A stretch of DNA of 41,387 bases. It comes from an uncultured Monoglobus sp. Lineage in GTDB: Bacteria; Bacillota; Clostridia; Monoglobales; Monoglobaceae. The translations under genes were made by a program, and so were the position numbers. Shown here piece after piece: positions 9,206-40,110 of the stretch. The stretch spans positions 1 to 41,387 of the forward strand of contig CANRHV010000019.1 in NCBI GenBank assembly GCA_947630505.1, given 5' to 3'. Below the pieces are notes generated by a model. It ran no database searches. It was given only the letters and a program-made list of their open reading frames with translations, and was not told the origin of the DNA. Numbering within the stretch: position 1 is the first letter of the stretch; each line of letters begins with the position of its first letter.

Positions 9206-9338
9206 CCATAAATCTCCTTTCGCGGTTTATATATTGTTAGACGATGAAAGATTCGGTTTTGTTCCCAATATTATTTAAATTTATTAAAACCGAAGCGGGC
9301 ATGTGCGAAGGCGGCTGAGAGGGAGGTGGCAGATATTA

Positions 9339-9540
9339 GGCTCGCCCCTTGGGGAGAGCTGTCAGCGTAGCTGACTGAGAGGGGTTAACGTAGAGACTAG
9401 GAAATAGGATCTAGGAACTAGGAATATCTCGCGTTGACTTTTCAATCCTAGTCCCTAGTTACTAATCTCTAGTGCCTACGTTGACCCCTCTCCGTCTTTC
9501 CGCCGATGGCGGAAATCCACCTTTCCTCAAGGGGCGAGGC
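9339..9540. repeat. Large imperfect palindrome, MITE-like intergenic repeat
   Basis: The 481-base gap 9206-9686 holds this element. The left arm (9339-9423) starts GGCTCGCCCCTTGGGGA and the right arm (9446-9540) ends with its inverse, TTTCCTCAAGGGGCGAGGC. Inner arms GAGAGGGGTTAACGTAGA and the inverse of 9462-9492 also pair, down to CTAGGAACTAGGA. Smaller perfect hairpins are nested: GTCAGC-GTA-GCTGAC at 9361-9375 and TTCCGCC-GAT-GGCGGAA at 9498-9514. No transposase ORF is inside. The 18-mer AGTAACTAGGGACTAGGA (minus strand 9463-9446) recurs exactly at 39905-39922. It is therefore a dispersed element, either a non-autonomous mobile repeat or an RNA-forming repeat. Confidence 0.85.
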
Positions 9541-9620
9541 AAACGAGCGGCTGAGGTCGTCTGTGGCACCGGGCGGGGCGGACTTAATTAATCAAGGAAT
9601 TATTAAAGATTAATTTTATA

Positions 9621-9649
9621 TTGACAATTATTAAAGAATGTGATAATAT
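9621..9649 (+). promoter_or_regulatory. Promoter of the amino-acid ABC transporter operon
   Basis: TTGACA (9621-9626) with TAATAT at 9644-9649 (17-base spacing), or GATAAT at 9642-9647 with 15. It lies about 40 bases ahead of the binding-protein ATG in very AT-rich DNA. Confidence 0.65.
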
Positions 9650-39863: not shown

Positions 39864-40085
39864 CCTCCTCCCGGGAGGAGGTGGAAACGTAGGTACCGGG
39901 AAACAGTAACTAGGGACTAGGACCCCCTCAGTCGGGCCTTGCCCGACAGCTCCCCCCAAGGGGCGCCACGGGCGGCAGATTGCCGCCCCTACAGGTTTCA
40001 TCACAATGTAGGGGCGGATATTATCCGCCCGTTTTTAATGAATTCATTGGTTTTATGCGGGACGCCGGGGTCGTCGTCCCCTACG
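39864..40085. repeat. Cluster of nested palindromic repeats related to the 9.4-kb element
   Basis: Fills most of the 290-base gap before the flavoprotein gene. It contains CCTCCTCCCGGGAGGAGG (39864-39881, a perfect 18-bp palindrome), the 18-mer AGTAACTAGGGACTAGGA (39905-39922) shared with 9446-9463, and GTCGGGC-CTT-GCCCGAC (39931-39947). It also has GGGCGGCA-GAT-TGCCGCCC (39970-39988) and GGGCGGAT-ATT-ATCCGCCC (40012-40030). CCGCCCCTACA (39983-39993) also pairs with TGTAGGGGCGG (40007-40017), an alternative fold. No ORF here is credible. Likely a mosaic of dispersed repeats. Confidence 0.8.
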
Positions 40086-40110
40086 ACAGATTTTTACGCA
40101 AATAATATTC

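Follow-up and report, generated by a model that had tools for sequence, protein, structure and literature searches.

In the window, which is the whole 41,387-nt stretch of Monoglobus DNA analysed here, a palindrome of 202 nt occupies positions 9339-9540. Its flanking genes are divergent, and it lies upstream of a promoter-like site (9621-9649). The preliminary description, made from the letters of this DNA, had given the same coordinates, and these turned out to be exact in that they are also the boundaries of a repeat family. The arms of the palindrome pair over 26 nt at 81% (9336-9361 with 9518-9543) and over 51 nt at 80% (9373-9423 with 9446-9496), and the small hairpins reported to be nested in it are found at 9362-9374 and 9497-9515. 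Folding as RNA gave a very stable single strand of -114.4 kcal/mol; shuffled sequences averaged -64.6, which corresponds to a z of -11.5, and 0 of 200 shuffles were as good. A search of the window with the Rfam 15 covariance models at the gathering threshold returned no match, and no intrinsic terminator (a hairpin followed by a T tract) was found inside 9339-9540. As had been stated, no transposase is apparent: a Pfam scan of 10 window ORFs, out of 103 mechanical ones, found none.

An exact 18-mer at 9446-9463 occurs again, reverse-complemented, at 39905-39922. The earlier view that two loci share this core is right for the 18-mer itself, but the palindrome is not repeated at the second locus, which holds a different one (39864-39966); the 18-mer is the tail of a heptad array within the latter. 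Downstream of this second locus, at 39960-40090, the window holds several GTAG-type hairpins in a row. The idea of a single family also had to be revised, because 9339-9540 is a composite of two nested dispersed families, an outer hairpin frame and inner heptad arrays, and it is the arrays that account for the 18-mer. The parts are as follows.

9339..9540, no strand assigned: the whole composite, made up of L unit, loop cargo and R unit, with boundaries common to 36 complete elements and a fold z of -11.5
9339..9384, + strand: L unit, GGCTCGCCCCTTGGGGAGAGCTG-hairpin-CTGAGAGGGG, with 63 L-pattern matches in its own genome
9362..9374, + strand: L hairpin TCAGC-GTA-GCTGA, whose stem is exchanged by compensatory change in other copies (covariation)
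9387..9421, + strand: left heptad array AACGTAG(N4TAG)4, subtype CACC
9422..9447, + strand: core separating both arrays, GAATATCTCGCG...TTTTCAATC, which recurs in other array pairs
9448..9482, - strand: right heptad array AACGTAG(N4TAG)4, subtype CTCC, whose inner end is most of the shared 18-mer
9485..9540, - strand: R unit, CCCCTCTCCGTC-hairpin-TCCACCTTTCCTCAAGGGGCGAGGC, of which 81 units were counted in the fetched loci
9493..9519, + strand: CGTC, 8-bp stem TTTCCGCC-GAT-GGCGGAAA and TCCA, a layout like that of CGTC-tagged REPs as given in the available part of PMC3733652
39886..39920, + strand: second locus, a decayed single heptad array inside the different palindrome 39864-39966

The palindrome had been proposed to be a non-autonomous dispersed repeat, and this is supported by its copies. 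A 221-nt query against its own genome (G000; 2.70 Mb in 119 contigs) found 109 matches at E<=0.01, which were merged by hand count into about 40 loci; the number is a lower bound, because just 40 of 153 candidates were scored. Longer copies were mostly 75-90% identical to the window copy, and partial and single-array derivatives were common. The preliminary description would have been refuted by the existence of just two copies without conserved boundaries. This is not the case, because there are about 40 loci at the least and because 36 complete elements with distinct flanks, gathered from all the fetched loci, have the same ends. Since the fetched loci were chosen for carrying these motifs, the counts of hairpins, arrays, orientations, boundaries, placements and pairings given below describe a non-random sample.

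The frame starts with GGCTCGCC in all the complete elements but one, which has GGCTCTCC, and ends with GGCGAGGC in 36/36; the base after the end is A in 31/36. It consists of two facing, non-identical hairpin units with sharp ends, L and R, and thus has the terminal inverted repeats with fixed ends by which MITEs are recognized. R mirrors L yet differs from it at fixed positions (GGCT/GCCT, AGCTG/AGGTG and CTGAG/CGGAG), and therefore the long stem keeps conserved mismatches. Among the adjacent facing pairs within 400 nt, with overlapping loci still counted, L was joined with R in 21 of 22. Flanking target duplications, another trait of MITEs and one that had been suggested as a check, were sought around the 36 elements and none was found: flank k-mers of 4-6 nt matched no more often than permuted flanks, and matches of 2-3 nt were scattered among the 16 offset combinations tested per k-mer size.

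The hairpins carried by the frame are diverse, with 69 distinct sequences and 28 stem types in 176 L units, and 33 distinct sequences and 16 stem types in 81 R units. Stems of at least 5 bp were present in 92 of the L units (4 when shuffled) and in 47 of the R units (1 when shuffled). In 16 equal-length hairpins, 15 cells were changed on both sides versus 4.4 in shuffled hairpins, and 0 of 500 shuffles reached 15; covariation measures that count pairs or types were unexceptional (130/500 and 98/500). Relative to transcription, the orientation of L units showed no bias (21:20), and that of R units was 13:5 in a small sample. Contrary to an intergenic picture, 25 of 101 L units lay inside ORFs of at least 100 aa by a crude ORF rule.

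Other repeats were seen besides these. A further insert of about 100 nt (GCGGCCGGAGCCGCGCAGCGGGTTCGTGGCAC...) lies inside hairpins of these palindromes (L202:4400-4560 and the interior of L227). A third family consists of the GTAG-tagged hairpins GTAGGGGCGGATATTATCCGCCC (e.g. L187:13290-13320 and L228), with 23 strict copies in G000, which lacks a Y1/RAYT transposase, up to 111 in G010, and presence in 10 of 12 genus genomes. There is also a repeat of about 250 bp in which a constant scaffold, GTGAAAACAATAGTGTTGTAAAT..., contains a short copy-specific word repeated several times (L186:8160-8370, L203:11190-11420, and L060 near 1300-1500).

The loop of the frame holds two inverted, facing arrays with a short core. 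In 206 arrays of distinct context, the unit was AAC(G/A)TAG plus typically four heptads NRANTAG, and conservation fell sharply past the fourth heptad, giving a sharp length of 35 nt. Constraint was strongest on the TAG and on the A in the third position of the heptad. In 25 facing pairs, the two arms mostly differed in subtype and were complementary at 4.56 of 12 variable positions, compared with 5.22 for shuffled arms. That the pair is kept for hairpin pairing was ruled out, because its arms are no more complementary than random ones; by analogy with transposons, the two arms resemble left and right ends. Array orientation relative to transcription was balanced (47:46). Of 34 arrays placed relative to ORFs, 28 were intergenic, 3 at an edge and 3 inside.

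The palindrome matched 11 of the 60 genomes searched, its own included; the others were 9 of 11 genomes of the same genus, 1 of 25 of the same family and 0 of 23 more distant ones. The strict array pattern occurred in 139 copies in G000 (0 for the reversed-pattern control) and in 11 of 12 genus genomes, and 397 other sampled genomes of the phylum gave none. The array is not essential, because it is absent from one genome of the same genus, the single-contig G008. For the L unit, the pattern GAGCTGN{8,24}CTGAGNGGGG had 63 matches in G000 (reversed control 0), and named genomes contained it in 114 or more stretches; the 80 of these that were listed came mostly from assemblies of rumen Clostridia and rabbit-gut Monoglobus, and one came from Faecalibacterium. 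One rabbit-gut record (L101) was 92.5% identical to G000 over 7.2 kb. A search of phages gave 2 weak partial matches, and a search of plasmids for the element gave none. Nine stretches of viral contigs (IMG/VR, L193-L201) had the L pattern, and a single 13-kb stretch had four L-unit hairpins; in contigs classed as viral, these may stem from prophage, from carried-over host DNA or from true carriage by phages. The titles and abstract beginnings of the papers that literature searches returned, subscription journals being outside this coverage, contained no description of these repeats in Monoglobus or Clostridia.

Stop codons and Shine-Dalgarno sequences coincide with the outer ends of the arrays much more often than with their inner ends. 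Arrays lying 320 nt or less from the end of a locus were skipped, which left 157 testable arrays in the fetched loci. The head was in the GGGGTY of the hairpin frame in 53 of them. In 27, an ORF of 100 codons or more took its stop codon from the outer end, which either contained it or completed it with the first bases of the array; the inner end, used as the control, did so in 1. The stops were supplied in different frames, by the first, second or third TAG, or by a TAA formed with the array head. A Shine-Dalgarno sequence with a start codon was directly outside the head in 12 arrays (inner-end control 0); three of the 27 stop cases (L104, L159 and L171) were also scored as Shine-Dalgarno, and these are probably antisense frames.

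The chaperone genes provide an example of this placement. The grpE stop codon lies in an array in 7/7 relatives; it is the first TAG in six and, because of a frame change, the TAG of the third heptad in the seventh. The dnaK ribosome-binding site likewise carries an array in 7/7, with the stretch from G011 beginning within that site. Between the two genes, the spacer ranges from 182 to 416 nt in the six genomes where it is measurable. Both border arrays are kept in the seven relatives while the interior differs: some have L/R palindromes there, whereas others have hairpins of the GTAG type or different palindromes. The head array at dnaJ directly adjoins the ribosome-binding site in three genomes (G000, G002 and G004); a hairpin separates the two in G003 and G011, and the head array is missing in G010 and G006. 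Three further sites compared with relatives of about 94% identity likewise differed in content. Among the orthologous sites, 3 gap pairs were examined as empty sites, and none was a base-precise insertion. The same arrays and hairpins also occur apart from each other across intergenic regions, in mosaic arrangements that vary among close relatives.

A partner enzyme was sought in the genomes. A search of G000 for the Y1/RAYT transposase (PF01797) gave no hit. Two of the 12 genus genomes had PF01797 hits, and the loci surrounding these hits contained no motif of the L, R or array type. Six candidate loci between inward-facing arrays, considered for an autonomous partner such as a MITE would have, contained host genes and no recognisable transposase-like cargo, as judged by eye on the beginnings of the ORFs.

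BIMEs and the neisserial intergenic mosaic elements are built of palindromes and other short modules mosaicked between genes. Their sequence families are different from those found here, and we know of no counterpart in them to the TAG-heptad borders. From the descriptions in the available parts of two papers, the nearest published relatives are the CGTC- and GTAG-tagged REPs (PMC3733652) and the TAACTGA heptamers of Beggiatoaceae (PMC4679880). In the portion consulted of the former, Neisseria CGTC-1 elements are interleaved with other repeats, and REPINs and GTAG-tagged REPs with RAYT are, like our element, short extragenic palindromes in inverted pairs, with many copies, precise units and stem variation (PMC3733652). 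The REPIN arrangement of short palindromic units, inverted as a pair and copied to many extragenic places, is present here. However, the feet of the L and R hairpins have no GTAG, their flanks being CTG...CTGAG and CCG...CACC; the Y1 transposase is missing from G000; and the frame is much longer, with a cargo slot.

The CGTC-tagged REPs are marked, in the same partial text, by CGTC, a stem of 8-9 bp with two leading A/T pairs, a CCA tail and a loop of 4-5 nt (PMC3733652). The R unit at 9493-9519 resembles them in its CGTC, its 8-bp stem starting with A/T pairs and its CCA tail, and the described elements also form head-to-head heterodimers with no dedicated transposase known, so far as that part of the paper goes (PMC3733652). 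In contrast, its loop is of 3 nt (GAT) rather than the 4-5 nt given there (PMC3733652), the tag is missing in R units with CCCGC-type stems, and the L unit reads AGTC. Because of this short loop, and because not every R unit has the tag, we did not file the R unit as a CGTC-tagged REP. The main text of that paper does not contain the word Firmicutes (PMC3733652).

The TAACTGA heptamers share with our arrays the period of 7, stop codons in the forward frames, an intergenic position near start codons and more than 100 sets per genome, according to the available part of PMC4679880. There, the repeat is a fixed heptamer, almost only direct, in 2-6 copies and up to 43 elsewhere, and that part describes no palindromic frame (PMC4679880). 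Here, in contrast, a 35-nt unit with a distinct head mostly brackets other repeats in inverted orientation, and its consensus NRANTAG does not match exact TAACTGA direct repeats. Our arrays differ from these heptamers in sequence, in unit length and in their inverted bracketing.

Another way to read the arrays on gene signals would be as host-maintained translation punctuation, in which the TAG heptads secure termination, the mirrored array marks or regulates initiation, and the hairpins are ballast. The placement of stops (27 of 157 versus 1) and Shine-Dalgarno contacts (12 versus 0), the array at the end of grpE in all seven relatives, the persistence of both borders at grpE-dnaK around a differing interior, and the constraint on TAG and the A at position 3 are all in agreement with it, as are the heptamer repeats at start codons in the part of PMC4679880 available. 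We nevertheless think it improbable, for the 53 heads in the hairpin frame lie away from gene signals, the strand of the arrays is balanced, G008 lives without the array, and two relatives lack the head array at dnaJ. The alternative of a structured intergenic RNA, already raised in the preliminary description and here framed as a regulatory or mRNA-stabilising family conserved for its fold, has become weaker and now seems to us very unlikely. The stable fold, the compensatory stem changes and the copies within the grpE-dnaK-dnaJ region would suit it, but such stems are equally expected of single-stranded DNA recognised by a transposase. L units have no strand bias, orthologous sites hold unrelated structures, and neither an Rfam match nor a terminator-like site in 9339-9540 was obtained. 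The balanced strands of L units and arrays, together with the position of the window copy between divergent genes upstream of a promoter-like site, argue for an element at the DNA level over a strand-specific RNA, and therefore favour a non-autonomous mosaic of the REPIN/BIME kind.

Against current mobility, recombination among old copies is a serious rival. The copies could be relics, with the diversity at orthologous sites produced by homologous recombination and slippage between old palindromes without active transposition. No transposase was found, the longer copies mostly have 75-90% identity with the window copy, and partial and single-array derivatives are common, as would be expected of relics. 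We regard this account as possible but rather doubtful, because 36 elements retain precise ends and relatives of about 94% identity have very different content at the same site. Recombination among existing copies could explain part of the turnover.

We therefore consider it likely that the palindrome is a composite, REPIN/BIME-like non-autonomous mosaic repeat spread in trans by an enzyme, with the L/R frame and the array both copied at the DNA level. Mobility itself, and its continuing at present, are inferred. The enzyme would act in trans on both families, presumably recognizing L and R in folded single-stranded form, as is assumed for REPINs, and the arrays by their 7-bp periodic end sequence. 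Whatever its frame, a gene reading into an array end would be stopped within a few codons, and because of this an insertion beside genes may be tolerated at little cost. Any effects of RNA on neighbouring genes would be by-products. More tentatively, and with less conviction, we suggest that the TAG-heptad array is at once gene punctuation and a kind of mobile-element end not described before. With its head on stops and Shine-Dalgarno sequences and termination in all frames, it might turn gene spacers, even those of chaperone operons, into protected slots in which cargo is rapidly exchanged between species, driven by a protein that reads a 7-bp period.

These findings extend REP-like mosaics to a lineage of uncultured Monoglobus-like Clostridia, and add to them a module that is confined to the genus and placed on translation signals. 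If the element is mobile, it would show how short spacers of dense bacterial operons can be occupied without breaking genes, and it would point to a novel recognition protein. It may also help to explain why intergenic regions are unstable in assemblies of these gut bacteria.
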